A stretch of 64,000 nt of DNA, from NCBI RefSeq assembly GCF_032854445.1, contig NC_088295.1:40597385-40661384 (forward strand), written 5' to 3'. Numbering within the stretch: position 1 is the first letter of the stretch; each line of letters begins with the position of its first letter. A model generated the notes under the pieces. It was not told the DNA's origin. It did not search any database and was given only the letters and a program-made list of their open reading frames with translations. Positions 9,907-59,326 of this stretch are shown piece by piece. The stretch is from Liolophura sinensis. Lineage: Eukaryota; Mollusca; Polyplacophora; Chitonida; Chitonidae. The position numbers were made by a program, and so were the translations under genes.

Positions 9907-10543
9907 TCTTCACAAATCGTAGCCGAAAAATCATTGCCAACAACGACCAAATTTTCTTTGGAAGTATTCCACACCTTTAATCTGAGGATATTGCTATTTA
10001 CTACACTCACACAGGTTCTCTTGTATTACCGCACAAACTCTGTGTCGTTCGTGGTGTTGCCCAGAAAGAGAATGAGGAAATCCTCCGTCAACATGTTTCT
10101 CACGGCTTTGGTCATCTCTGATTCTCAGTTGCTCACCATAAACTCACTGTCAGTGAACAGATCGGGGTTATCCGCAGGTCAGAGTGAGCGGCGAATCAGA
10201 GTTTTATGGTTGGGGTTATCCCTGAACAGATTTGGTCATCGGTGTTACAACATTATCCGCGAACAGATTTGGCGGGCAAATCAGAGCTTCATGATTCGGG
10301 TTATCCGCTGATTGGAGTTGTCCGCGGACAGATGTTGTTGGGTTAGGTCGAGGTTATCCACACATTGGGGCTTCCCGCCGACAGATCTGGGCGGCGAACC
10401 AGAGTCACGTGATAGATGTTATCCGTATCGGGGTTATCCGTGGACAGAACTGGTCGGCGAATCAGAGTTTCATGATCGGTAATATCCGCGGATCAGTGTT
10501 ATCCGCGAACAAAACTGGTCGGCGATTAGTACCATGTAATCCA
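9907..10543 (+). pseudogene. truncated GPCR pseudogene of the same family
   Basis: The reading frame aligns with the paralogs from the DHPDNSNNDQLPLDVL segment (decayed), through FNLRIL.FTTL, RKRMRKSSVNMFLTAL and ISDS. About a dozen codons of TM1 (the IVCVGLFF segment) are deleted. No ATG is present; the open frame begins at a TTG. After TM2 the sequence does not continue into TM3. It dissolves into degenerate tandem copies of the extracellular-loop-1 coding segment, and TM3-TM7 are absent. This is a dead copy in the same orientation as copies 1 and 3. It may still be transcribed; nothing in the sequence tells. Confidence 0.85.
10160..10540 (+). repeat. degenerate minisatellite made of GPCR loop-1 coding sequence
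   Basis: About seven imperfect units carry GGGGTTATCCGCGGACAGA, then GGTCGGCGAATCAGAG, then TTCATG. They match the paralogs' coding segment for FMIGVIRGQNLSANQS (48 bases). In the intact genes this segment is bounded on both sides by TTCATG, a microhomology that would permit tandem duplication by slippage or unequal exchange. Units vary from about 40 to 65 bases and contain stops. Confidence 0.75.
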
Positions 10544-15375: not shown

Positions 15376-15492
15376 CCCCACGCAATATGTTCAGCCGCAA
15401 AGCGCCATATGCGCTGAAGGCAAGAGATCTCAGCCTCAGACATTGTCAACTGATTTATGAACATATAAACGGTCCGAAAAGCACTGTGTACC

Positions 15493-15797
15493 GCTTATCC
15501 AACCAGCCCTGTGGACCGGTTATTCAACGAGCACTGTGGACTGCTCATACAATTAACCAACACGGTGGGCCGCTTATGCAACGAGCACTGCGGACCGCTC
15601 ATCCAACGAGCTCTGTAGACCGCTTATCCAACGAGCACTGTGGACCGGTTATCCAAGGAACGCTGTGGACCGGTCATCCAACACTCACTGTAGACCACTT
15701 ATCCAATGAGCACTGTGAATCACTTATTCAGCGTGCACTGTGGACCGCTTATCCAACCAGCACTGTGGACCAGTTATCCAACCAGCACTGTTGGCCG
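15493..15797 (+). repeat. 25-bp minisatellite
   Basis: About 12 units near GCTTATCCAACGAGCACTGT plus GGACC, 25 bases each except one of 29. Because 25 is not a multiple of three, the open frame across it reads the unit in rotating phases; no protein is claimed. Confidence 0.9.
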
Positions 15798-16225
15798 CTT
15801 AGGACCACTAAAAGCCTGATAAAAGGCGGCGGAGGGCAATAACGAAAATTCTACTTAACCCGTATCTGAGATTGTCCGACTGGAATACCGAAAGATATGC
15901 ATGCCTACGACCCACTCAAGTAACTTCGATTGGAGTGGAAAAATTAAACAAAGCAAGTTGAAACGTGCCGAACTCATGTCGAATTCGAGCAAGCCAAATC
16001 AATTATATATTTTGTTTTAATTTTATAATTTTGTCATTTGCTTTAAAATATTAATAACATTCACAGAAACCTACGTCCAAATCTTACATATAATGTAAGA
16101 AAAACTGTTTCACCAATATGTTTATGAATAGGCATGATCTTTACTCCACAATAAGTACTGCGAATGAAGAAGGGACATTGTTAGGTTTGATGTCTTGTAA
16201 CATCGCCAGTAACTACAAAATGATG

Positions 16226-23480: not shown

Positions 23481-26400
23481 CTAAGCAGTGGCATCAAAGA
23501 AAGTGTCGAGAAGTCTGGATACTTGATCTACTGTGTACTTGACATATTTATCTGGATTTTTGGTAAAGTTCACCGCCGTGTATTTGTCTCTGAACATCTT
23601 GTACTTGGGGGTGATATAGTCTTTATTGTCTCTTATCAATGTCTGGCGAAGGTCAGAGTCCGGGATCGCGTAACTCTTCTGGATTCGACAAATGTCCTCG
23701 AGTTCTTTATTAAATCCCTATAATAAAATAAAAAAATAATGTCATAGAAGGACTTACAACTGTTTTGATACATGCTACTAAAAAACAGGTATGAAACAGG
23801 AATTTCTAACATAGTGTTCCAGGTGCAGCTCATGTTGGCTTCATCTCAGGTTGCATGAGGAAGGTCTGCAACCAACCCCTGGATAGTCACAGGTTTCCAC
23901 TGGCTCTGCCCAGTTTCTTCCCACCATAAATGTTGGACTGCATCGTATAAGCGCAAAGTATGCAATACTATCACAATAGCACAGGAAATTAAATATTTAC
24001 TAAAAAAATGTCACTGATTTGAGCAAGTCTATGAAAATCAATCATTTATAAATAATTAGCCATGACTATTCCATTTACCAAAGCTAGGAGTTTTTGAGTA
24101 AACAATATCAACAGTTCAATAGATCAAGTCTTTCAACAAAACAAAAGCAAAGTGAAAACATCAAAACCACTTACTGTAAACTTATCTTTGATATTTTGTT
24201 TGTCCTTGTCTTTCAGCTGAAACATAATTAATTGATAATGGTATCATAAATTCTGTAAAGTACACACAAGAAATACGCAAAAGTGGAGATTTTGACCTGC
24301 AGATCAAGACTGTCTTGTTTTAATAAAACAGAAGTATCAGCTCAGTCCACCTTTACAAAACTGCATCGATGGTAAAAAATCATTCTGAACAGTTCTGGTA
24401 CAAGGACAACTGGTCAAATTGAAAATGAAATGCCTTCCCTTCTCTTGACTCCTCAGCAAAACCCATTCTTAATCTACATGTAGCTTTTGACAGCGACAAA
24501 GTATAATATAATCATCCTTATTACGAACTAAGCTTAATATAATGTCCTGAGCAAGAAACAGTTTAGCTTCTTTTACAGTTCTCCTAATTCACCTTGAGAT
24601 TAGCAACATCAGGTGAGCTGGTCCTCTGCACAGAGATGGGTTTGTGCACCTCCAGGATATAGTGTAACACTCTACTCCAGCTGAAACAGAAAGTGAAAGT
24701 AAAGCACTGAATATACATAATCACTGCGTGATGATGCTATTGCAGGTATAGCAAGATATGTACCTATTAATATTAGGATACATGTAATGGAAAGCATGAT
24801 AGTTCTGCAGCCATCCCTTTAAATGTATTTATTCATTGGATTAGTGTTTTAAGCTGTACTCAAGGATATTTCACAACGGCAACCAGTATTATGGTGGGAG
24901 GAAATCCAACAGAAACCCATAACCATCTGCAGGTTGCTGCTATCCCCTTAAAAAGCAAAATATCACTGCTAAACAGATATGTCCCGCTAAAAAGCTGTTA
25001 TGTCTCTTGCAAACAGTCGCAGATTTGCTACCCTTTGTAGAGGACCAGATTGCACACTAGATTGCAGTATATACAGTCGTGGGTAAAATTATCAATAAAT
25101 GGTGTATTGGTGTATACCCAATGGCCTGTAACCTTCATGTAACCCACACAATGATTTCAGCAGAAATCAGTGGAAGACAAACTCAAAAAATCTCACAAAA
25201 ATGTCAAAATATCTCACCTTTCTGAGTATAACTTCTTGTTCTCAAGAATTTTGTCATTAAAGGCTTGTTCCACCTGGTTGTCAGCTATGTGTACAAGTTC
25301 CAAAAGACCACTCCTACAAACACAACAGAAAATAATACACTAATTGATCTATCACATTACAATCAAACCACTGCTGATAATTGTAAATCAATGCTTACAT
25401 TTTGCATGTTAACTATTTGTGTTAGAATTTCAAATAACTACTGTTTTATTTCTGTACCGCTCAAAAGTCTTAATCGTCATACAGAATACAATAGCATGCT
25501 CATGGGGTCAAGCTAGCAAGTACTTGGGCCTGGAGGAAAAGATTAAAACTTAACACAGGGCAATTCACTCAATCTGGCATCTTGTGTTACTCAAAATACA
25601 TGAGAAGCATTATACTCCACATCATTATTGAAGGGAACATGTGCACAGATGTCACATAAATACTGATATCAAATATATACATATATATCATAAAAGAAGG
25701 CCCTACCGACTATTAAGTGTACAATAAACTGACACAGTCTGTCACACAAAACATTACGTAATCTAGACATGTAACCACTACTGGGGTTCTTGTTTTCAAA
25801 CCTATTCTAAAGACCTACCTTTTCAGTGACTTCAGCATATAGTTATAGTTGTTCAGCATAAAAATGGCTCGTAGTGTGGCATCACCATAGGTCTCTGCCT
25901 TATTGGTCAAGTTCAGGCCCAGAGATGACAAAACCTTCACTGTGAAGAAAAAAACAAGTCCAGATCCAATGTAACTGATGTAGCTGATGTGACCAGCAGC
26001 TCTATCACAGGACAATGATGCAGTTATTGATGTCGTAAGGGATCTCTTATTCTTGATTGTGGGGTGCATTTTTGAAACGTGCATGCATCAAATCTTGGAT
26101 TTCACACAGACTGACAAATGTTTGATTCCATGATAGTTCTTCATGATCACAGTACAGATGGTTGGTACTCTTCTGAGGGATTATGTACAAGAGCTATCCA
26201 TCTGATAGTACATGTACCTACCTTATAAAATTCCCAACAGATTCATCCACATGATTAAATGCCATTCATATGTGTTTTCGGAGCCTGAACTCTGTGCTTA
26301 GCCAGTTTTTCTTTGAAACATGTAAAATGGCCTCATCTTATTTATCTATTTGATTGGTGTTTTACGCCGTACTCAAGAATATTTCACTTATACAATGATG

Positions 26401-29400
26401 GCCAGCATTATGGTGGGAGGAAACTGGGCAGAGCCTGGGGAAAACCCATGACCATCAGCAGGTTGCTGAAAGACCTTCCTGCGTAAGGCTGGAGAGGAAG
26501 CCAGCATGAGCTGGACTTGAACTCATACAACCGCATTGGTGAGAGGTTCCTGGGTCATTACACTGTGCTAGCGTGCTAACCAAATGAGCCACGGAGGCCC
26601 ACACCATGGCCTCATCTGATTGATTATTTATTAAAATGTGCTCTATTTCCCTATAATCAGTTTAACAGTTGGTAAGCCTGATTACATAGAAGGCAGTCTG
26701 GGGAAACCATTTACACATCACTAAGTACCTGCTAAGCCAGCTGCAGCTAATTTGCAACACTGCTGGTCTTGACCAAGGCTGATAAACCTACACAATATAA
26801 ATGGTTGGGCTTTACCCATTATGACTCATTTTGCCTGACTCACAGACTCATTTTGCCTGACTCACAGACTCAGAAACATTGAACTCCAGATTACTGTCCA
26901 CAATATCTCAATCCTGTGAGGGGCCTCCGTGGCTCAGTCGGTTAGCGCGCTAGCACAGCATAGTGACCCAGAAGCCTCTCACCAATGCACCCACCATAAT
27001 GCTGGCTGCCATCGTATAAGTGAAATATTCTTCAGTACGGCATAAAACACCAAATAAAAAAAAAAAAAGAAAAAAAAAAAAACCAATCCTGTGTAACTTA
27101 CTGACATAATCTGCTATCTTTTTCTTAGCTTTCTCAGGATCAGCGCCCATGGATGTACCAGCAGGATCGTCTGAATAGAAAGAATGCTTGATTTAAAAAA
27201 AAAGTTTTTTTCATTACGGGTTACATTAATATCAAAAGTCAAACACTGAAAAAATCAGTAATTCTCATTTCTACCTCTGACCCATGATGGTTTCCCTTTC
27301 CACTTGCATGCTTCTTAAACGACAATTTCCTTTGTGTTTCGAGTATTAAGGACAATATACTCTTATGAAAGTTAGGTGTTTCACAAAAAAAATATTTAAA
27401 ATATTTACTCTTAACAACATGTAGTTGACATTAGGAATTGACCTAATGTTTGTTTATATGTTTATTTATTTTGTTTATGTACATATTTCTTCAGCCTTTA
27501 TCTTCCTTTACTGACAGATTCACTATACTATGATTTATTTTTTTTTTGTTTGATGTTTAAAGCGCTCAAGAATGTTTCACTTATATGAGCAGTTTATGAG
27601 TGGCAGAAAACCGAGTGCCTGAAGTAAATCAACCACCTTTGTCAGGTAGTTGACTAACAGTGCTAGAAGTGCATCCATCTGACACAATATTATCGCTGTA
27701 ATCTCTTACCATGCCTAAGTAACATAACACCTGCAGCATCAGCATATTCCAGCAGCTGCTCCAAGAAAATCATCACCTGAAACATGGTCAGTTACTTCAT
27801 ATTTATTTATTTACTTGATTAATGCTCTGCATAATGTTCAATAATGTTTCAATTCTATGTTGGTGAGAAGGTTCACACCTTTCATGAAGCCATTGCCCCT
27901 TTTCAAATTCATGACACACTTCCAGATATACATGTGAGGTGACCAAAATCTAAGCTGATCAAACCATTCAAACATCACAACATTGGAACACACAGCTTTA
28001 TTGGTCATAAGATCTATAAAGACAAATCTTGGTTGGAGGAGTAGCCCATGGTAAACCATCAGCCTTGGCCTAAAATCAGATTTAGGTAACATGAAATAAA
28101 TTTAATTAATAGAGCCATATTTTCCAGGAGTAAATCATGACAGAATTGAACACCTGAGCAATCACCATAAAGCATGGTGACCTTCAAACTAACTTGACTC
28201 AAAACAGGGTGAGAGATTGCTGAACTGCAGAGAGACCAATAACAGACACATTAAATTCCACTTACATGATTGGTGAGCTCATGTACAGTGTCATCTTTGT
28301 CCAGAGATGTGACAATAACAGACAGATTAAATCCCACTTACATGATTGGTGAGCTCATGTACAGTGTCATCTTTGTCCAGAGATGTGACAATAGCAGACA
28401 GATTAAATCCCACTTACATGATTGGTGAGCTCATATACAGTGTCATCTTTGTCCAGAGATGTGACAATAGCAGACAGATTAAATCCCACTTACATGATTG
28501 GTGAGCTCATGTACAGTGTCATCTTTGTCCAGAGATGTGACAATAACAGACTGATTAAAATCCACTTACACGATTGGTGACCTCATGTACAGTGTCATCT
28601 TTGTCCAGAGATGTGACAATAGCAGACAGATTAAATCCCACTTACATGATTGGTGAGCTCAAGTACAGTTCCATCTTTGTCCAGAGATGTGACAATAACA
28701 GACAGATTAAATCCCACTTACACGACTGGTGAGCTCATGTACAGTGTCATCTTTGTCCAGAGATGTGACAATAGCAGCAGACACATTAACTTCCACTTAC
28801 ATGATTGGTGAGCTCATGTACAGTGTCATCTTTGTCCAGAGATGTGACAATAGCAGACAGATTAAATCCCACTTACATGATTGGTGAGCTCATGTACAGT
28901 GTCATCTTTGTCCAGAGATGTGACAATAACAGACTGATTAAAATCCACTTACACGATTGGTGACCTCATGTACAGTGTCATCTTTGTCCAGAGATGTGAC
29001 AATAGCAGACAGATTAAATCCCACTTACATGATTGGTGAGCTCAAGTACAGTTTCATCTTTGTCCACAGATGTGACAATAACAGACAGATTAAATCCCAC
29101 TTACATGATTGGTGAGCTCATGTACAGTGTCATCTTTGTCCAGAGATGTGACAATAGCAGACAGATTAAATCCCACTTACATGATTGGTGAGCTCATATA
29201 CAGTGTCATCTTTGTCCACAGATGTGACAATAACAGACAGATTAAATCCCACTTACATGATTGGTGAGCTCATGTACAGTGTCATCTTTGTCCAGGGATG
29301 TGACAATAACAGACTGATTAAATCCCACTTACATGATTGGTGAGCTCATGTACAGTTCCATCTTTGTGACAATAATAGACACATTAAATCCCACTTACAT

Positions 29401-32400
29401 GATTGGTGAGCTCATGTACAGTGTCATCTTTGTCCAGAGATGTGACAATAACAGACTGATTAAATCCCACTTACATGATTGGTGAGCTCATATACAGTGT
29501 CATCTTTGTCCAGGGATGTGACAATAACAGACTGATTAAATCTCACTTACATGATTGGTGAGCTCATATACAGTTTCATCTTTGTCCAGGGATGTGACAA
29601 TAACAGACTGATTAAATCTCACTTACATGATTGGTGAGCTCATGTACAGTTCCATCTTTGTGACAATAATAGACACATTAAATCCCACTTACATGATTGG
29701 TGAGCTCATGTACAGTGTCATCTTTGTCCAGAGATGTGACAATAACAGACAGATTAAATCCCACTTACATGATTGGTGAGCTCATATACAGTGTCATCTT
29801 TGTCCAGGGATATGACAATAACAGACAGATTAAATCCCACTTACATGATTGGTGAGCTCAAGTACAGTTCCATCTTTGTCCAAGGATGTGACAATAACAG
29901 ACTTATTAAATCCCACTTACACGATTGGTGACCTCATATACAGTTTCATCTTTGTCCAGGGATATGACAATAACAGACAGATTAAATCCCACTTACATGA
30001 TTGGTGAGCTCAAGTACAGTTCCATCTTTGTTCAGAGATGTGACAATAACAGACAGATTAAATCCCACTTACATTATTGGTGAACTCATATACAGTTTCA
30101 TTTTTGTCCAAGGATGTTACAATAACAGACTGATTAAATACCATTTACATGATTGGTGAGCTCATGTACACTTTCATCTTTGTCCAGAGATGTGACAATA
30201 ACAGACAGATTAAATCTCACTTACATGATTGGTGAGCTCATGTACAGTTCCATCTTTGTCAAAGATAAGACAATAACAGATAGATTAAATCCCACTTACA
30301 TGATTGGTGAGCTCATGGACAGTTCCATCTTTAGGCATATTTGAGGCCCTCTCTGGATCTGCCTATTGTCAGGAATGAAACAAGAGAATCATTACACAGG
30401 TTAGTTACATTTCTGACAAGTAAATGATCTAAATAGTGCATCTAATAATAAATATGAACAATATGGTAATTTAAATACATTTTTTCCAGTTCAACTGCAA
30501 CCTACATGTATTGCATATCTGTTCATGAATCAAACTCAGCTGCCTAGAATTTGACAGATATAAAATGGAACCATTTGTTATATGCAGATGCAGAGAGATA
30601 ATGACTACAGTAATTTGAGTTGCAATACTAATATACTGCATTTCGCCTCAAATTTACCTCTTTTCAAGTGACACACCTTTCTTGATTCTGACTTATTACA
30701 GTAAATGATGTAAAGTTTCACCCATTGGTTACTGTCGTTTACTTTCGCACCGGGCTGAATTAGCGGCAAGATGATCGCCCATTTCATTATCCCACATGGC
30801 AGCTATTGTCCCTAATCTGCGCCATGTGGGGTGAAATCACTCACAGCAAAGTGTGCAGATCTCCCAAATAGCCATCTATAATCATACCCATGAATTAAAT
30901 GGAAGAAAGTATCAAGTCAGGAGATGAGTATTACAAACCCATGGTCATAACAGTACAAACAGGCCTACAATGTACGCTGCAGGCCTCGAAACGGGGAACG
31001 ATTGTTCAGTGACGTGACTTCCATGTGCTTTATGTGTCCCTAACAACAGGTAAGATTTTTTTGCCTTTCAGCGGCAAAGGGGGCCTCTGTGGCTCTGTCG
31101 GTTAGTGCGCTAGCGCAGGGTAATGACCCAGGAGTCTCTCACCAATGCGGTCGCTGTGAGTTCAAGTCCAGCTCATGCTGGCTTCCTCTCCGGTCATACA
31201 TGGGAAGTTCTGATAGCAACCTGCGGAGGTCGTGGGTTTCCCCCGGGCTCTGCCCGGTTTCCTCCCACCATACCGCTAGCCGCCTTCGTATAAGTGAAAT
31301 ATTCTTCAGTACGGCATAAAACACCAATCAAATAAATAATTAAATAAATAAATAAATTCAGCGGCAAAAATCCCGCAAATGATAGGTATAACTGACACGT
31401 GGAGATTTCAAGCCTTCTGATTGTAAGTTGTTGCTTTAAACGCAGTTTGACATCACCGGTTGCTAGTTCGAAAGCAAGGATTTACAGGGTGCTATTAAAC
31501 TTCTGTTATGGCTTTGTACTTGAAGAGCTGTGCATTTCATCGGATATTTGACATGCCACTCCACACGGGCAAATGTATTAAAAAGTCATGCTCAACCTCC
31601 AGAGAGTTTTCTCCCAAATTCCTGTTCATCATGAAATGGCAATCATAAAACAATGAAGGTGCACCTGTTGTGAAATAAGCCTCTATGTACTAAATTCATT
31701 ATGATTAAAACTGAAGAAAACATGAGCTGCTGGTGGTGGAAGCCTAGACTGATTGCCCAATGAAGTGTGAGCTTGCAGGTTTATTACATTCGGGAACTTT
31801 CCATATAATCCACCCCTGAAGCTCTCCGGCGACGCCCATTCACCAAGAATCACAGTCAACGTAGTGAATCATGGGATACACTTTCCAAGTCTTAGAGCAA
31901 AACTTTAGGTTATTTACTGTAATCTAGCTTATACATGTAGGGCCACTTAAGCAGTTTTTGATATGTTTAAATAACTTCTTACCAAAAACAGTGCTTCATC
32001 TAAACTGACCTTTTAAGGCCTTTATGTTCTGATGAATGTTTACAGGCTAAACTTTAGATGAAATACAGAACTTTAGGAATTATTTTTCGAAATTCAGTCT
32101 TACCTTTATGCTGTCAACAAATGCATCTAATCCCTTGGCACCCTGCAAAGATGTGAAGATGTCTAATAATTATCAAGTTTTATTTTAATCAGTGAGCCCA
32201 TGCAAGACTCATGACTTGGGGTAAAGTGATAAATACTTATTTTTCTGATTGTTGTTTTGAAATGAGAGATACTGAACAATTGTAATGATATATGATCAAT
32301 GTCAGTTTTATAGGTAATGGAAAAACAAGTGGTCTTCCAAAATCCTGAGTCAAACAGCCAAAAGAGTGGTATCAGCTGCTTACTGACAAAGGCCCTATGA

Positions 32401-35400
32401 ACAATGAACCCCCATCTTGTGTGTATCAATCATTGAAAGACAAGTCCATCAATCTTAACAAGAATCCCATGAAATGGTAGTGCAGAGGGGAAGAACTTCA
32501 ATTTATTCGTAGGTAGTATCTTTAATGAAGGTGCAAAAGTCTTTGGTTGTATTATAAGCTGTGGTTGGTAGTTACATGTATGCTAATTCAGCCAATTCAG
32601 CCCTTTGTCAAAGTGACCACATACGTGTGTAATACATACCGTTGTATCAAGAGAAGACAGTAAGGATGTTAACTTGGTCCTGGTGTTTGTGTTTAATCCC
32701 TGTAAACAGTGAGCAGATGGCAACAGTTGAAACTCACATGAATGCCCTATACCAAACACAAATTTCTTCCCAGACAGTAGAATACTGTACAAATACTCTA
32801 GAGATTATACAATATATATCTCATTAAAATACTTAAATAATTTTTATTAAGAAATATTTATGCATGGTTCCTAACCATTAAAAAATATTTTTCATGGATT
32901 TTTACATAATCTATGTGTTCCAGCACTTTCAAAGACTATTTAGTTTAAATACAAACCTCCACCTTGAGATTAACCGATACTACATGCTTTTTAGCAGCTT
33001 ACTTACTGGGTCATTTACAACACTTTGCTACATTCTTATTACATTTAACAATACTCTGCTACATTCTTATTACATTTAACAATACTTTCAAGGACATAAC
33101 TCAAAATAAACATTTTCTGCCAACAAAATTTGAGACGTTTGAAGGATTTCAGTCACCAGTTAGAGCCCTATTTACATGTATGGTTACCATGGAGATATAT
33201 TAGTCTTTAAGGGTCAGTCAACAGAAGGAAACACAATGTGGTATTCTGTTTAAGAAATTACAAGCAAAGTCATTGGCTGTATCTTCCACATGTTATAATC
33301 ATGGCAATGCAATGGGCCCGCTCTGAATTACCTCCCTTGTTACACAACATTAATAGCGAGATTAGTTTTTGAGGCGTGAAGCTACGAGAAGTGGGAACTC
33401 GTTTATTACAGCATGCACAAAGTAGTTTATGTCACAAAAGTCACAAATATTTTCTACACAACAGAATGTAAAAAATAAGCATGATATCAGTCTTTGAGAG
33501 TCGTAGAAATGTGGAGAGATCTCAAATGAAGTTGATGTTTCTCAGCTTAAAAGTAGAATATATAACATTTGACAGAGTTCACCAAAGCTGTCTAATGTAT
33601 TTAGGGTCAAGAGTTTTGAATTATCTCTGAATGGATTAAGAAATGCATAGTTTATCCTGGACTTCCAAACAGGTTTACTTCGAATTAAAAGCTGTCTTAA
33701 AGCCTTCAAATAGCTTATGCCGCTTTAACTTTGATACTAGCCATTAGCCATCTCAACTCAAAGGAGGTAATTCTGGGCTGCTCCATTACATCTTTTAGGA
33801 ACTTACCTCTAGAGTGAGATCAAAGTCTGACTTAATGCTTCTGATGTGACGGATAATGGGGAAGACATTCAGCACAGATGTGTACTCGTGACGACCCATG
33901 GCTTTCCGGACATTCACAGCAATCAGCTTAAACAAGACAAGGGTATGCTGTATGAGATTATCCGCAGAAGGAACACAGTAACTTAATGGAACACACCTCA
34001 CAATACACAAGTTACAAAACTTGACAGAATAATGACACCTTCAACAGACGATTTGACTTTAATCCTTAACATAACGGACATGATGGATTCATTTGTCAAT
34101 CTGACCACCACTGGTGGCAGAGGCTATCATGTCACAATGCTCCAGAAGTCAGGCCAAATTGTGTCAGCTAAGAACACACACTACAACACATACCACCTAC
34201 TTGACCTATGTCAGACTCTATGGAGGCAATGACATCACTGGTGTTCTCAAGGCAATGTGAACGGAAGGAAACATCAGTGATCACATCCTCCTCCGGAACA
34301 AATCATACCTAGTGAGGAGAGAGCGAATGATGAACTACTATAGTTACCTCCCCTTCGCTAATGACCATCTCCATTGCCTGCTGTATGGTGTCATCTAATA
34401 CTGTTCTCTGGTGTTTCTCAGGTATGATGTTTGTCATTAACTGAGCCTCACTCTGCAATCATACAGTATAACACTATGGTAACAAAATATTTACACATTT
34501 AGCTTTCTTATCAAAGTTTACATTTAGCAAAATGGCCAGACAGCGATGGGAGCCACTCACAAACTCGTCAGGAAAATACCTAATAAATAACTTTGGTATA
34601 TTAGTGACCAACATTTTTATGTGTGACCAACAGATTTGTATATCATGCCCTTAAACAATGAGATTCCATGACAGTAGTCAGATTTATGGGATGCTGGAAA
34701 TTAGACTGAATCATCTAGTAGATTTGGGCAAATACTCTGTATTGAGCAGTCTGTGTTAAGAATGAATGACTCCTGTGATACCTGTATTAGTTTGAGTAAT
34801 GCTGTCAGCTGAGTGATGTAGAACTCCAGCTCTACATCTGACCACGTCTCTTCTCTCGTCGTCTCTAAACTCGCAGATATCTGACGTTTGTTACCTGAAC
34901 AAATTCATGGCATACATGTAAATACATAAATATCTGATTTACTCAGTCTCAAAAATGGCTTTTGGTTTTATACCTTTCAATGTGGACATCTGGTACATTC
35001 ATGAAACAAAAAAGGGTGATATATTAATTGACGGCAAAATGACAGACAGGAAATGTTCCCTTAACACTATTTGCATATTCCTAGCTCCTCTGAATATAAT
35101 TTATGTTGCTTTATCAGGTGAACATGGAAATAAAATATCATTCTTGTACTCTGCCACATCTGACAAAAGTAAAGTTTTGTAAAAAAATGTTTGATATATT
35201 GAGAAAAATACTTTGAGAATTAACACAAGGAAACAGGTGGAAATGTTGACGGATCAGTTCAGAAATCTGGAAATGCTATGTGGTGATGCCAAAACGATAA
35301 CAAAGCCACTCGTACCACCAAACATGCTAAAGAAGTGATTATGAAACAAGCTTGGTTTTCTTTGACATTTATTACAATTTTATTTATTTATTTAATTGAT

Positions 35401-38400
35401 TGGTGTTTTACGCTGTCTTCAAGAATATTTCACTTATACGATGGCGGCCAGCATTTATGGTGGGGGGAAACCGGGCACAGCCCGGGGGAAACCCACGACC
35501 ATACACAGGTTGCTTCCAGACATTCCCACGTAGGTCCGGAGAGGAGGCCAGCATGAGCTGCACTTGAACTCACAGCGGTTATAATTTTAGGGTTTAGCCC
35601 TAGTAGAGGGCTGTACTCACCAGCTTCAAATGGTGATTTTATCAATGCCTTGGAAGCCTTATTCATAAATCTGAAAGAAGAATTGCTGAATGAAAAGTTA
35701 ATGTCTAAAAAACAATTCATAAAAATATTTCATTTCCAAATAGAATACTCTCCTAATTATATGGATTTCCAGTCATGTTGAGATTAAAGTAAAACATATA
35801 AAAAGGGAAAAAATTGAGACATTGAGATCAATCTACAAATTTTGACAAATAAATCTTAAACTACTGCATGGCCACAATATAATTTCATTCTTTGCTTAAA
35901 ATGAATATTGGTAACTTTCACTCACAGTGTTCTCTTTATGCTCTTTCTTGTGGGTGTTTCCTTAGCTGTTCTGAGTTTCCCACTCTGAAAGGCACAAGGA
36001 AATAAATCATACAAAACATCACTGAAACAAATTCATTTATTATTTCATTGGTGTTTTATGCCATCCTCAAGAATGTTTCACTTATACAACGGCGGCCAGC
36101 ATTAGGGTGGGGGGAAACTGGACAGAGCCCTGGGGAAACCCACGACCATCTGCAGGTTGCTGTCAGACCTTCCCACGTACTGACGCAGAGGAAGCCAGCA
36201 TGAGTTGAACTTGAACTCACAGCGACCACACTGGTGAAAGGCTCCAGGGTCATTACGCGGCGCTGGTGTGCTGGCCGCCTCAATACACGCAAGTATACTT
36301 ATGCATAGTTTTATTTATTTATTTATTTGACTGGTGTTTTACGCCGCAGGTTGCTGGCAGACCTGCATAGTTCTAAGTGACCTATTTGATGATGCCCACT
36401 TCAATTTTTAGAATTCTTTCCCTTTAATTAGAAAAGGTTACTTACTGTTGCTGGAGAACTTTGTATATGAAAGGAAGCACTGCCCAGGCTTGACGATTTC
36501 AAGTGATCTTTCAATCTGTCAAAATAAAAATCATTCAACAGACATCTATAAAAAGAGTACAAAAAAATTAACACTCAGTTTGAACGAATGAATGAATGAA
36601 ACCTTTATTTAAAAGAGGGTAGCCCTATCACTGAACAATTTGCTCTTCCCAGAGGCCCTCTAAAACAATACATGAACATTAAATAAGTACAAACAGTACA
36701 TACAATTCCATTTTTAAAACATGAAAACAGTCAATAATACATCACTACATATATAAGCTGAAATCTTAAACAAACAGACGTGTTCCAATTTATTGGCTGA
36801 AATAAGTCTGCTTGAAAGGAAAATGTATTTTAAAAAGACATATACTTTCCACAGTGAGCTTTATAACCATATTTCTATTTATTTAACTTTCCACTACTGT
36901 AAATTTTGATCAGTCAAGAAAGCTGAAGTTGAACTAGATCCATGTACTGAAAGAATGATTATGGCTTAAACCCACACCAGCTGTATTTAATCCAGATGTG
37001 AGTGAAATTCACTAAAAGAGATGCAAACATAAAAAGACCAAGAGGAAAACTGCATAAATAGCACACCCTTACTATGATAAATATATTTATTTGACTGGAG
37101 TTTACCCTGTACTCAAGAATATTTCACTTATATTACCGCGGCCAGCATTATGGTGGTAGGACACTGAGCAGAGCCCGGGGCAAACCTACAAACATCCACA
37201 GGTTGTTGACAAGGCTTACCCCTGAAGTGACTGTTGCAGAATGGAGGATCTTGATGCTGAGTAGACTTTAAGGAAGTCTGTAGTGTTGCCGTCGGTGACC
37301 AGCCATCTGGCCATCTCTCCCAGTTCTCCCATTTCCTTCTCAGGGAAGTGTTCTAGCACTGTGTTATCAGAGTCATGACTGCCCTGAGAAACAATATCTG
37401 CAGGAAAGACACAAGAAATAAATGGCAACACTTGACATGAAAATTTAGGCTTTTATGTATATTAAGATATACAGAGAGTATACAGTACAGAACATTTACA
37501 AACTCTCCCCAAACTTAACAACGACAACATAATCATAAAACAAGTCTTCTCAACCTTTAAACCAGGTTCAGGTATGACAGACTATTATTTCTTTAGGTAA
37601 AACCAAACCTACCATCATCTCCACCAAGCAGGTTCAATATTATCATTGGGCGAACAGGTCTTCCATGACGACTTAGAGTGGACTTGAACTCCTGCTGAAT
37701 GTTGTCTTTTCCTTCATCAAACAGCAAACTCTGATGACAAAAGAACGGCACTGAAAATAAATTCTCAGAGACACAAGTCGCATTATTTAACTGCTTAGTT
37801 TTTCCTTCTTTCTCACACCATAACCAACTGTTTTATATCTCAAAAGTATACAAGTGGTGAATAAGGCAACCACTTCTACATAAAATGCTTCTAATCAATT
37901 TAACACTGGTTTCACAAGCTTAATGCAATGCATAAACCACATGTCTGTTGTCATACTTGTACATGTAAATTGCCAAAAAGTCAAAAGAACAACCTTTTCC
38001 GTATTGTTAATGCTTCTATCAACTATTGTTTCTTGTTTCATTTAAGACAAGATGATGTCACTAGAGCTTATCAACAGGTTACATGCGCAACAGCTGATAT
38101 TTCCTCGACTATGTATATCATATCAGGCAACAGTGTAATCTTAGCACTCCTGACAATTCTAAGCTTTATGAATCTTACCACTATTGATACTCTATCTGTA
38201 TCATATCTGGCAACAGTGTAATCTTACCACTCCTGACAATTTTACACTTTATGAATCTTACCACTGCTGATATTTTCTGGACTATGCATAACATAATTAT
38301 ATAAGATGAAAGTGCAATTTTACCACTCCTTACAATTCTGAACTGTATGTATCAGTGTAATCTTACAACTGCTAATATTTCCGAACATGTGTATCATATC

Positions 38401-41172
38401 GAGCACCATTGTAATCTTACCACCGATATTTTTGAATATGTTTATCATATCAGGCACCAGTGAAATCTTACCACTCTTGACATCTTCAGGCATGAGTATA
38501 ACCTTACCATTGCTGATATTTCTGTACTACATTTATCACATCATGCAAACAGTGTAACCTTACCACTCCTGACATGCATGAGTATAATTTTACCACTGCT
38601 GATATTTCTGTACTACATTTATCACATCATGCAAACAGTGTAACCTTACCACTCCTGACATGCATGAGTATAATTTTACCACTGCTGATATTTCTGTACT
38701 ACATTTATCACATCATGCAAACAGTGTAACCTTACCACTCCTGACATGCATGAGTATAATCTTACCACTACTGATATTTCTGTACTACATTTATCACATC
38801 ATGCAAACAGTGTAACCTTACCACTCCTGACATGCATGAGTATAATCTTACCACTACTGATATTTCTGTACTACATTTATCACATCATGCAAACAGTGTA
38901 ACCTTACCACTCCTGACATGCATGAGTATAATCTTACCACTACTGATATTTCTGTACTACGTTTACCACATCATGCAAACAGTGTAACCTTACCACTCCT
39001 GACATGCATGAGTATAATTTTACCACTGCTGATATTTCTGTACTACATTTATCACATCATGCAAACAGTGTAACCTTACCACTCCTGACATGCATGAGTA
39101 TAATTTTACCACTACTGATATTTCTGTACTACATTTATCACATCATGCAAATAGTGTAACCTTACCACTCCTGACATGCATGAGTATAATTTTACCACTG
39201 CTGATATTTCTGTACTACATTTATCACATCATGCAAACAGTGTAACCTTACCACTCCAGACATGCATGAGTATAATCTTACCACTACTGATATTTCTGTA
39301 CTACATTTATCACATCATGCAAACAGTGTAACCTTACCACTCCTGACATGCATGAGTATAATTTTACCACTGCTGATATTTCTGTACTACATTTATCACA
39401 TCATGCAAACAGTGTAACCTTACCACTCCTGACAGTTCAGGGCTTCCAGGGCTGTTCTCTGTGAAGTAATTCTTGGCTTTGAGCAGCCTATTCATCAGCA
39501 ATAGATACTTGTCTAAGCCACAAGTTGTGGGGCTGAAATATAACACAAACACACATGTTCATATGGCTTGTTTTTACATTCCTAAGCCTTTAACTATTAC
39601 AAAGAGAGCTTAATCTTGCATTCAATCTAGCCAAAACCATTGTCTTGTTGGTTTGAAATGTCAAAAAAAAATCAGTCATTATGTCCAAGAGCATATTACA
39701 CAAAAGTAACAATTGGACAAAGGCAGAGTAAAGAACCTATTGTACTTAATATCACAATTATCCCTCTGTATCATAAAAATGTAAAATGACATCTGAAAAC
39801 AATAATTACATGTAGTTGATCTACAGAACATTTTTTGGCTTACCCATCCCTTATAGCATCTTCTACTTCTTTAGCCACATGGTAGTAACTCAGCACATTA
39901 TCCAAGGCTCCCATGGTTTTCTCAATATCTATCATTGGTCAAGGTGAAATTTACATTTTCGTCCTATGAAAAAGTTGGCGCTGCATTTAATTTAATAGTT
40001 TTTCCGAGATGTACAAACTTAGAAACGGATGTCAAAAGCTAAAATCTGGAATTGAGGTCTGAATATTGCACCACAGAATGTGCATGTATTTTGTGACTTG
40101 GTCTCAGTAATTATGATGTTATTGATGGTAAAGGATACTTTCTTGTCTCCTCCTGAGATTGTCTGTCTCCTGGTAAAGAGGCACAATGTTATCATTTAGA
40201 CGTTTAAGACGACTTTCAAAACTGGAGAGGATAGTCAGCATGTTCTGGGTGGTGTTACTACTCTTATATAGTGTGTCCTTCATAAGGTTCAGGTTAGTCA
40301 CTTCCTGGAAACAAAGAAAGAATAGTTATTTACATGATATATGTGCCATGCAATAATGTCATAAGTGTCATTTTAACGTTTTGATTGCTATGTTGCCAGA
40401 GACAAAGATTATATACAGAACCACACTGCAATGAAAATGCATAGAACACCTCAGGTTCTGAGGTTGATTCCACAAAGCAATTTCTGACTTAACTCAAAAT
40501 TTAAAACCTGTCCACAATGCTTAGTTTTCGGTACTGGGAGCTGAATTTGGGACATCTTTGTCTTAAAGATAATATTGATGAGGTGGACAATATTTTGATT
40601 CCTAAAGCCAGGAAATAAGCCTTGAGATCATATTTCAAATTTGGAATTTAGTCAGAAATGGCTTTGTGGAATCAACCCAAGATGCTTTTAACTCACAGGT
40701 AAACTGTGAAACCCAACAGTATAACATATGTTTATTTATTCTTTTTATTTTAACATGAGTCATGGTGCCTACTCAGCCCCAGCACCTCACCCCAGCCTAC
40801 ATGCCCCTGAATTACACAACAACAGTTGAATAAAGAATTCAATGTTTCAATTATTCTTTCATTCAGTTTTTTAAGTAGTTGTGACATTTTGTACACCACG
40901 CAGACTTTCTGGAAGAAGCCATATAAATCTATCCTCAATTCATGTTTTTCAGTTCCATCTTCAGGTTTACACAGCCATTAATAAAATATAAGAAATAGTT
41001 ACGACAGCGCCAGGCACTCATATACACTGACAAGGCCATTGATCACGAAAAATGAGCCATGTATGATACCATTCCCTGCTAACACACTCAGTGGGAGGAT
41101 CTAGAAAATTACCTTGTCTAGTTTGGCATCAATTTCAGCCTTCAACACAGCGATGTCAGCACTGTCGTCCAT
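23481..41172 (-). CDS. EXOC7: exocyst complex component 7 (Exo70), complete 22-exon gene
   Basis: Exo70 is the exocyst subunit that binds PI(4,5)P2 and Rho-family GTPases and tethers secretory vesicles to the plasma membrane. I assembled 22 exons with consistent phase and GT/AG borders into 704 codons, within the vertebrate EXOC7 isoform range. Landmarks seen: an N-terminal coiled coil with ILSSFESRLKRLNDNIVPLY (exon 2), VLSYYHVAKEVEDAIRDG (exon 3), YFTENSPGSPELSG (exon 4), RWLVTDGNTTDF (exon 6), a linker TAKETPTRKSIKRT (exon 8), PKDGTVHELTNH (exon 15), IFMLNNYNYMLKSLK (exon 18) and the C-terminal YVKYTVDQVSRLLDTFFDATA (exon 22). The Exo70 C-terminal domain spans roughly residues 300-690. A lysine-rich stretch near 613-627 corresponds to the phospholipid-binding patch of the family. 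Introns 4 and 15 hold donor-derived tandem arrays, and several introns hold SINEs. The start MDDSADIAVLKAEIDAKLDK lies 285 bp from the WBP11 start on the other strand. Confidence 0.96.
23826..23955 (+). mobile_element. SINE family 1, core fragment (EXOC7 intron 21)
   Basis: GCAGCTCATGTTGGCTTCAT, GGAAGGTCTGCAACCAACCC and CCACCATAAATGTTGGACTG. Both the head and the A-rich tail are missing. Confidence 0.65.
24824..24942 (-). mobile_element. SINE family 1, 3' fragment (EXOC7 intron 19)
   Basis: TTTATTCATTGGATTAGTGT, TAAGCTGTACTCAAGGATAT and ATTATGGTGGGAGGAAATCC. Confidence 0.7.
26339..26605 (-). mobile_element. SINE family 1, full length with perfect 12-bp TSD
   Basis: Flanked by ATGGCCTCATCT on both sides (26327-26338, 26606-26617). 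Complete from the AAATA tail to the tRNA-like head GTGGCTCATTTGG/GGGCCTCC. Sits in EXOC7 intron 17, sense to the gene. Confidence 0.95.
26823..26872 (+). repeat. 22-bp tandem duplication
   Basis: GACTCATTTTGCCTGACTCA with CA, two full units and a partial third; EXOC7 intron 17. Confidence 0.85.
26919..27083 (+). mobile_element. SINE family 1, internally deleted, perfect 10-bp TSD
   Basis: Intact head with pol III A box TGGCTCAGTCGG (26930-26941). A core deletion joins CTCACCAATGC to ACCCACCATAATGC; the tail is a long A run. Flanked by CAATCCTGTG (26909-26918, 27084-27093). The downstream TSD ends about eight bases from the EXOC7 exon 17 donor. Confidence 0.9.
27533..27630 (-). mobile_element. 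decayed SINE family 1 fragment
   Basis: TTTGATGTTTAAAGCGCTCA, AGAATGTTTCACTTATATGA and GTGGCAGAAAACCGAG keep the 3' core order. Confidence 0.5.
28249..30294 (-). repeat. EXOC7 intron 15 tandem array of exon-15 5' splice sites (about 76-bp unit)
   Basis: There are 27 tandem copies beside the real exon 15 donor. The donor-type motif, CTTAC on the plus strand, falls at 28261, 28337, 28413, 28489, 28565, 28641, 28717, 28796, 28872, 28948 and onward to 30220, then the true site at 30295. Spacing is 76 bp except 79 once, 66 twice and 75 once. In transcript sense each unit holds the last roughly 36 bases of exon 15 (coding KDGTVHELTNH or a variant), GTAAGTG, and about 35 bases of intron. Reading past the true donor meets a TAA within five codons. 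Confidence 0.95.
31079..31356 (+). mobile_element. SINE family 1, full length with perfect 12-bp TSD (EXOC7 intron 14)
   Basis: Flanked by TTCAGCGGCAAA (31067-31078, 31357-31368). Head GGGGGCCTCTGTGGCTCTGT; B box GAGTTCAAGTCC; core CTCATGCTGGCTTCCTCTCC and GGGTTTCCCCCGGGCTCTGC; tail (AAATA)n. Confidence 0.95.
33022..33089 (+). repeat. 31-bp tandem duplication
   Basis: GCTACATTCTTATTACATTT occurs at 33027 and 33058; EXOC7 intron 12. Confidence 0.85.
35384..35576 (-). mobile_element. SINE family 1, 5'-truncated (EXOC7 intron 9)
   Basis: TTTATTTATTTAATTGATTG, GTTTTACGCTGTCTTCAAGA, through GAGCTGCACTTGAACTCACA; lacks the tRNA-like head. Confidence 0.85.
36034..36280 (-). mobile_element. SINE family 1, near full length (EXOC7 intron 7)
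   Basis: GTTTTATGCCATCCTCAAGA through GAGTTGAACTTGAACTCACA to GGTGTGCTGGCCGCCTC. The head is partly decayed. Confidence 0.85.
36309..36366 (-). mobile_element. SINE family 1, internally deleted fragment
   Basis: Tail and GTTTTACGCCG joined directly to CAGGTTGCTGGCAGACCT, skipping about 90 core bases. It lies about 28 bases from the copy at 36034-36280. Confidence 0.65.
37082..37216 (-). mobile_element. SINE family 1, 5'-truncated, abutting the EXOC7 exon 6 donor
   Basis: Runs from the tail at 37082 to CACAGGTTGTTGACAAGGCT and ends within a few bases of the exon 6 5' splice site (donor GT at 37218-37219). Confidence 0.75.
38060..39423 (-). repeat. EXOC7 intron 4 tandem array of exon-4 5' splice sites (86-bp unit)
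   Basis: The motif CCTTACCACTCC (plus strand) recurs at exactly 86-bp intervals ten times before the real exon 4 donor; the following GACA falls at 38571, 38657, 38743 and so on to 39431, with no indel. In transcript sense each unit carries the last 11 exonic bases, TGTCAGGAGTG, then GTAAGG and intron sequence. A second donor-like CAGTG/GTAAAA lies in each unit. From about 38060 to 38560 the same motifs occur in degenerate, irregular copies, so the array is older away from the exon. Confidence 0.95.
40463..40675. mobile_element. MITE family A, copy 2 (EXOC7 intron 1)
   Basis: The best-preserved copy. Left end GTTGATTCCACAAAGCAATT and right end AATGGCTTTGTGGAATCAAC form a nearly perfect 28-base terminal inverted repeat, with weaker complementarity to about 45 bases. 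No ORF; the whole 213 bp could fold back on itself. Confidence 0.85.
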
Positions 41173-58118: not shown

Positions 58119-59326
58119 TACATGTAGTCATTGACTCTCTGACTTTGTGGCCACTGATAGAATGTACATGTAGTCATTGACTCTCTGACTTTGTGGCCAC
58201 TGATAGAATGTACATGTAGTCATTGACTCTCTGACTTTGTGGCCACTGATAGAATGTACATGTAGTCATTGACTCTCTGACTTTGTGTGCACTGATAGAA
58301 TGTACATGTAGTCATTGACTCTCTGACTTTGTGTGCACTGATAGAATGTACATGTAGTCATTGACTCTCTGACTTTGTGTGCACTGATAGAATGTACATG
58401 TAATCATTGACTCTCTGACTTTGTGGCCACTGATAGAATGTACATGTAATCATTGGACTCTCTGACTTTGTGTGCACTGATAGAATGTACATGTAGTCAT
58501 TGACTCTCTGACTTTGTGTGCACTGATAGAATGTACATGTAGTCATTGACTCTCTGACTTTGTGGCCACTGATAGAATGTACATGTAATCATTGACTCTC
58601 TGACTTTGTGGCCACTGATAGAATGTACATGTAATCATTGACTCTCTGACTTTGTGGCCACTGATAGAATGTACATGTAATCATTGACTCTCTGACTTTG
58701 TGTGCACTGATAGAATGTACATGTAGTCATTGACTCTCTGACTTTGTGGCCACTGATAGAATGTACATGTAATCATTGACTCTCTGACTTTGTGTGCACT
58801 GATAGAATGTACATGTAGTCATTGACTCTCTGACTTTGTGTGCACTGATAGAATGTACATGTAGTCATTGACTCTCTGACTTTGTGGCCACTGATAGAAT
58901 GTACATGTAGTCATTGACTCTCTGACTTTGTGGCCACTGATAGAATGTACATGTAATCATTGACTCTCTGACTTTGTGTGCACTGATAGAATGTACATGT
59001 AGTCATTGACTCTCTGACTTTGTGTGCACTGATAGAATGTACATGTAATCATTGACTCTTTGACTTTGTGGTCACTGATAGAATGTACATGTAGTCATTG
59101 ACTCTGACTTTGTGTCCACTGATAGAATGTGCATGCAATCATTGACTCTCTGACTTTGTGTGCACTGATAGAATGTACATGTAATCATTGACTCTCTGAC
59201 TTTGTGGCCACTGATAGAATGTACATGTAGTCATTGACTCTCTGACTTTGTGTGCACTGATAGAATGTACATGTAATCATTGACTCTCTGACTTTGTGTC
59301 CAGTGATAGAATGTACATGTACATGT
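58119..59326 (+). repeat. 46-bp minisatellite, about 26 units
   Basis: Unit: ACTGATAGAATGTACATGTA, GTCATTGACTCTCTGACTTT, GTGGCC. Units are nearly identical apart from two recurrent binary variants (GTAGTC or GTAATC; GTGGCCAC or GTGTGCAC). The repeats are contiguous, with no spacers. Confidence 0.95.

Follow-up and report, generated by a model that had tools for sequence, protein, structure and literature searches.

Donor-spanning tandem arrays in the EXOC7/Exo70 gene and at other loci of the chiton Liolophura sinensis

Introduction

In the literature examined, tandem arrays whose units span an exon-intron boundary are described for lancelets and for isolated human genes. In amphioxus, these arrays are called 'mirages' and were described in Adh3, in the globin genes BflGb6 and BflGb9 and in TnC, similar repeats being present in PGBD5 (PMC3087553; PMC3902484). 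In humans, the CBS gene carries a 31-bp variable number tandem repeat (VNTR), c.1444_1467+7(16_21), which by its name comprises 24 exon and 7 intron nucleotides in 16-21 copies (PMC2630376), and the minisatellite of IFI6 (6-16) supplies several splice donors, two downstream units being used (PMC4526556, citing Turri 1995). In human segmental duplications, moreover, internal minisatellites located at exon-intron boundaries alter gene structure (PMC2812944). No boundary-spanning array from a mollusc was found in the open-licence literature; one paper describes a 27-bp intron minisatellite of abalone, in passages that make no mention of a boundary. Here, we describe two arrays that span 5' splice sites in the EXOC7/Exo70 gene of the chiton Liolophura sinensis. 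The gene lies in a stretch of 64,000 nucleotides (contig NC_088295.1, which is C1 in the genome-wide counts below, positions 40,597,385 to 40,661,384), hereafter called the window, to which the coordinates of this gene refer.

What is new is the presence of mirage-type arrays in a mollusc, and at many loci; the kind of array is itself already known. The original prediction, which had noticed both arrays from the letters of the window, knew of no named class for them, but the amphioxus name applies and the human CBS and IFI6 repeats are related. The arrays were probably born by chance, as minisatellites that splicing tolerates, in a chiton rich in minisatellites. If many such arrays are present in a mollusc genome, it would become testable whether introns grow by duplicating their own junctions.

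Two donor-spanning arrays in EXOC7/Exo70

The arrays and the exons next to them are as follows (slashes mark exon boundaries):

28237-30332, minus strand: array 1, composed of a 76-bp unit in 28 copies, the first of which overlaps the exon at 30300-30362
38490-39434, minus strand: array 2, composed of an 86-bp unit in 11 copies, each unit carrying two donor-like sites
38109-38474, minus strand: decayed half-unit copies of array 2, deeper in the intron, with GTGGTAA sites at 38181-38474
23484-40304, minus strand: EXOC7/Exo70 gene, 18 exon stretches placed, with matches to Pfam PF03081
30300-30362, minus strand: coding exon opening array 1 (63 nucleotides; AATAG/GCAGAT...AATCAT/GTAAGT), aligned to Exo70
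27610-27678, minus strand: coding exon that follows array 1, with the acceptor GTGTCAG/ATGGAT
39424-39531, minus strand: coding exon opening array 2, start placed to within 2 nucleotides, aligned to Exo70, translation ending in ...GSPELSGV
37614-37730, minus strand: coding exon that follows array 2, with the acceptor TCATCAG/AGTTTG

In array 1 (76 bp x 27.8 with 90% matches by Tandem Repeats Finder), the unit reads in sense order as about 33 nucleotides of exon tail, the donor CAT/GTAAGT and, containing the latter, about 43 nucleotides of intron. The first copy consists of the tail of the exon at 30300-30362 (ADPERASNMPKDGTVHELTNH) and its donor, and 33 exon nucleotides are repeated in the copies. 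GTAAGT is intact in 27 of the 28 copies, which were located by a GT-containing pattern; since the copies are spaced by 66-79 bases and never by double that distance, there is no space for a missed copy. In array 2 (86 bp x 11.0 with 97% matches), the unit is a dimer of half-units, one carrying GTAAGG and the other GTAAAA or GTAAGA, so that the donors are spaced alternately by 56 and 30 bases. Its first copy consists of the tail of the exon at 39424-39531 and the donor GTG/GTAAGG, and 9 (by computed comparison) to 11 (by eye) exon nucleotides recur in the copies.

Every copy of both arrays is in sense orientation. The arrays are unrelated to each other, and in a search of the 609,464,459 bases of the genome (632 contigs) that skipped very common words, each matched only its own locus. 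An origin from a mobile element was rejected because in this search neither unit was dispersed. The joined translations of 17 of the 18 exons match the structure chain 2pft_A ('Exocytosis Protein') in three stretches with an E value of 1.3e-112, and for both exons that open an array the alignment to Exo70 extends as far as the donor. We take 2pft_A to be mouse Exo70. The 5'-most exon or exons lie outside the mapped part, and some exon ends are approximate. As the next acceptors lie before 27678 and 37730, the introns holding arrays 1 and 2 measure about 2.6 and 1.7 kb, respectively, and the arrays occupy roughly four fifths of each. The prediction of two arrays of unrelated sequence but alike construction, each made of exon tail, donor and intron segment in sense orientation at a real donor, is confirmed.

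Within EXOC7, the 40 bases spanning each exon end were compared with the nearby intron. Copies were present at two of the 16 donors (27 and 13 copies) and at none of the 15 acceptors; the difference is not significant on its own (p = 0.48), and a few exon ends were placed only to 1-2 nucleotides, one of them (the end of E2) being without a visible GT. Moreover, 70 of 400 random points of the gene lie in such repeats, because the arrays make up about a fifth of it.

Recurrence at other loci in the genome

The genome was scanned for places where the strong donor CAGGTAAGT occurs three times at regular spacing, and the same pattern read backwards served as a control. Over the whole genome, the donor pattern gave 267 array rows for periods of 27-57 bp (reversed control, 162) and 573 for periods of 58-88 bp (reversed control, 108). 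Loci were then taken among the matches listed, a scope that holds for all locus counts and comparisons below: 15 short-period arrays, covering contigs C1, C2 and C3 to 23.3 Mb, and 10 further long-period arrays, covering C1 and C2 to 8.73 Mb. Their 5' flanks were read. The long-period counts leave out arrays already among the short-period ones, two short-period loci that look related (C2:109440 and C2:176925) were entered as two, and L020, which is no pattern match, stands outside the 25.

The construction seen in EXOC7 was found again at other coding exons, which are unrelated and have units that differ from one another. In fourteen of these 25 other arrays, the first copy lies at the donor of an exon that is open and reads like protein, and 11 of the 14 repeat at least 5 exon nucleotides in the unit; in L003 (with a GC donor), L013 and L031, fewer than 5 exon nucleotides are common to exon and copies. 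Six of the 14 exons match a known family or structure:

L005: RNA polymerase III RPC1, E 9.8e-8
L007: glycosyl hydrolase 31, E 7e-13
L014: SMAD MH2, E 7.8e-11
L017: diacylglycerol kinase accessory domain, E 1.2e-8; structure search without a match
L028: DNA-PKcs, E 1.3e-15 and 3.2e-12
L034: fumarylacetoacetase, E 7e-14; Pfam match below its cut-off

The exons of L003, L008, L009, L013, L019, L029, L030 and L031 gave no significant database match (L013, L019 and L029-L031 were searched against Pfam only) and were called from open frames by eye; a match of the L003 exon to polycystin-2, at E 0.058, is not significant. The arrays L001/L016, L002, L004, L006, L010, L011, L012, L018, L032, L033 and L035 are not exon-anchored or are unclear.

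By eye, an exon was seen at the edge of none of 12 readable control arrays. The difference from the donor arrays is significant for all exon-anchored cases (14/25 versus 0/12, p = 0.0009) and for those with at least 5 exon nucleotides in the unit (11/25 versus 0/12, p = 0.007), but not for database-supported exons alone (6/25 versus 0/12, p = 0.15). The exon calls were not blind. Donor arrays were judged at the 5' edge, the TGAATGGAC controls at either edge and on either strand as far as these were reached, and the TTTTACAGG controls at the motif-strand 3' edge only; 12 of 15 control arrays were readable at one edge at least, L023 being without a repeat row and L038 and L039 falling short of an edge. 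The absence of exons at the 12 controls indicates that the exon readings at donor arrays are not mere noise. Exon anchoring is no proof of hot spots at donors, as the donor motif is in any case frequent at exons.

The exon share of the unit spreads widely, from 5 of 31 nucleotides in L014 and 9 of 49 in L008, through 33 of 76 in array 1, 28-32 of 39 in L007, 32 of 44 in L005, 37 of 44 in L017, 55 of 65 in L029 and 71 of 83 in L028, to 35 of 38 in L009, as random break points would give.

Two further observations concern these loci. At L015/L017 (G000:C3, about 23.271-23.276 Mb), more than 100 copies of a 44-bp unit follow the diacylglycerol kinase exon, 37 of the 44 bases being exonic. Beside the SMAD array of L014, at locus positions 2243-2553 on the other strand, there are four copies of a 77-bp unit with an acceptor-like TTACAG and a donor-like CAG/GTAAGA; no clear exon was seen at this repeat.

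Array formation at donor motifs

The original prediction held that random minisatellite birth can hardly account for the shared construction and suggested that repeat formation may start at 5' splice sites. Under donor-seeded birth, R-loops, transcription-linked breaks or slippage at active donors would start duplications more often than elsewhere. However, the rates per motif copy are close to those of the matched control. The genome holds 9807 copies of CAGGTAAGT and 4854 of its reverse, counts that include the copies within arrays. Against the reversed nonamer of equal base composition, the short-period arrays number 15 versus 7 loci, a per-copy ratio of 1.06 (0.41-3.07), and the arrays of all periods 25 versus 9 loci, a ratio of 1.37 (0.62-3.35); both intervals include 1. 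For the long-period control, a pair of adjacent places on C1, near 90.01 Mb, was entered once. Moreover, the 7-base motif GGTAAGT gave fewer array rows than its reverse (2134 versus 2988), contrary to a donor enrichment. As rows tally long arrays many times, the 9-base motif and array loci were used instead. Finally, CAGGTAAGT outnumbers its reverse two to one, and about half of its copies are therefore plausibly true donors; about half of the arrays would then be expected at exons by chance, as is seen. The 14 of 25 arrays that open at apparent coding-exon donors would also fit seeding at donors.

Three observations weigh against chance birth under neutrality. First, the 15 short-period donor loci compare with 22 loci of three pooled control nonamers over the same stretch, namely the reversed nonamer (7 loci), TTTTACAGG (8 loci, with a group of five related places on C2, near 17.88-18.02 Mb, entered once) and GGACATTTT (7 loci, counted from the matches listed), which gives a per-copy ratio of 2.04 (0.98-4.12; p = 0.036). 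TTTTACAGG had been considered as an acceptor motif and was rejected as such because its genome count equals that of its reverse (12205 versus 12293; array rows, 208 versus 92), and it was used as a control. Second, for periods of 58-88 bp, the excess in rows (573 versus 108) is accompanied by 10 versus 2 array loci. Third, one of the two donor-like sites of array 2, site A, is invariant over all 11 copies, as are many windows of that unit (26 of 86). The first two observations would also fit seeding at donors.

Taken together, the data are compatible with anything from no donor preference to a few-fold one, and neither donor seeding nor selection for U1 sites is demonstrated. At motif level, the rates come near to the outcome that would speak against the original prediction, in which donor-spanning arrays are no more common than arrays at other points, and the three pooled controls leave some room. 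We regard donor-seeded birth as unlikely. It is likewise unlikely that the minisatellites of this lineage truly originate at active 5' splice sites, with array formation raised about two-fold or more and introns growing by repeated junction copying. Overall, the earlier interpretation is borne out in part, namely in the like construction of the two arrays and in its recurrence at other coding exons.

Conservation and potential use of the additional donors

Alternatively, the donors may have been selected as a ladder of binding sites for the U1 small nuclear ribonucleoprotein, either to protect the transcript from premature polyadenylation, as originally proposed, or to tune splicing. The retention of GTAAGT in array 1 and the invariance of site A in array 2 would fit this idea. 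However, no clear sign of such selection emerges from the comparison of copies. Among 23 evenly spaced copies of the 28 in array 1, the difference between copies is 0.053 for the nine donor bases as compared to 0.071 for the unit, and 29 of 76 windows show no more variation than the donor window; the donor window is thus nearly as variable as the unit average. In array 2, the variation among the 86 windows is highest at the other donor-like site, site B. Furthermore, introns of about 2.6 and 1.7 kb would be short for such a need. A selected U1 ladder therefore appears highly improbable. This comparison covers the two EXOC7 arrays, the loci elsewhere having been chosen by their intact donors.

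The inner copies of exon tail and donor could also provide new splice boundaries, the introns being in the course of growth or gain, a model that has been put forward for the amphioxus globins (PMC3087553). At L007 (locus positions 1410-2166) and L034 (1134-1758), the donor-array units of 39 and 66 bp are divisible by three and open in frame in the part examined, and their inner donors could therefore add protein repeats to the glycosyl hydrolase 31 enzyme and to fumarylacetoacetase, respectively. In both EXOC7 arrays, however, reading past the true exon hits a stop inside the first unit, and use of the second donor of array 2, which lies 56 bases further, would change the reading frame. Ongoing intron growth or gain seems quite improbable. 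With its many strong but false donors, each such array calls for caution by annotators.

A proposed origin of the arrays

From the anatomy of the arrays, their recurrence, the per-copy rate near that of the matched control and the lack of clear additional donor conservation, we infer how the arrays were born, which donor is used, their neutrality and the passage of a duplication into neutral growth. Chance minisatellite birth tolerated by splicing would start from a local tandem duplication whose break points happened to flank a 5' splice site. The exon-adjacent copy would retain a working donor; as this donor stays with the exon and the mRNA would be unchanged, selection would leave the duplication in place. 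Later, slippage or unequal exchange may have multiplied and homogenised the unit, with no growth tolerated except towards the intron. The additional donors would be passive by-products, the spliceosome presumably using the exon-proximal one, and use of a later donor would give frameshifts or stops.

Other repeats in the window

Three further repeats (58119-59321, 15480-15801 and 10375-10525) were considered as boundary arrays and rejected, as no exon was seen by eye at their edges. The first of these is an ordinary array with 26 copies of a 46-bp minisatellite. The stretches 31088-31320 and 36040-36290, judged by eye, are dispersed repeats resembling short interspersed nuclear elements, presumably of a mollusc type.

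Comparison with known systems

As in the EXOC7 arrays, the unit of the human CBS VNTR crosses a donor; the CBS repeat is a single polymorphic human locus, and the likeness is drawn from its name, not from its sequence. In human IFI6, inner donors are used and yield isoforms. The repeats in human segmental duplications are likewise boundary minisatellites, but were judged by retention or splicing between paralogues and are not donor-anchored arrays.

The EXOC7 arrays are of the same kind as the amphioxus mirages. Mirages were reported from cephalochordates, whereas the EXOC7 arrays are in a chiton, although we do not take the host as defining. The copy numbers of 28 and 11 in EXOC7 are above the 3 and 6 given for amphioxus BflGb6. 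Mirages occur on the donor and acceptor sides, while the genome-wide scan of the chiton covers donors. Normal splicing and length instability were demonstrated for the mirages, whereas the chiton arrays are known from one assembly. In mirages, the edge copies are excluded from homogenisation (PMC3087553; PMC3902484); in array 1, the first and last copies have identities of 0.87 and 0.84 to the consensus, the inner copies reaching 0.89-1.0 save one of 0.75 with an insertion, and in array 2 the distal copies are degraded. Like the mirages, the EXOC7 arrays have units that span an exon-intron boundary, with 33 and 9-11 exon nucleotides plus the donor, and abut an authentic gene boundary, the exons being aligned to Exo70 up to the donor.
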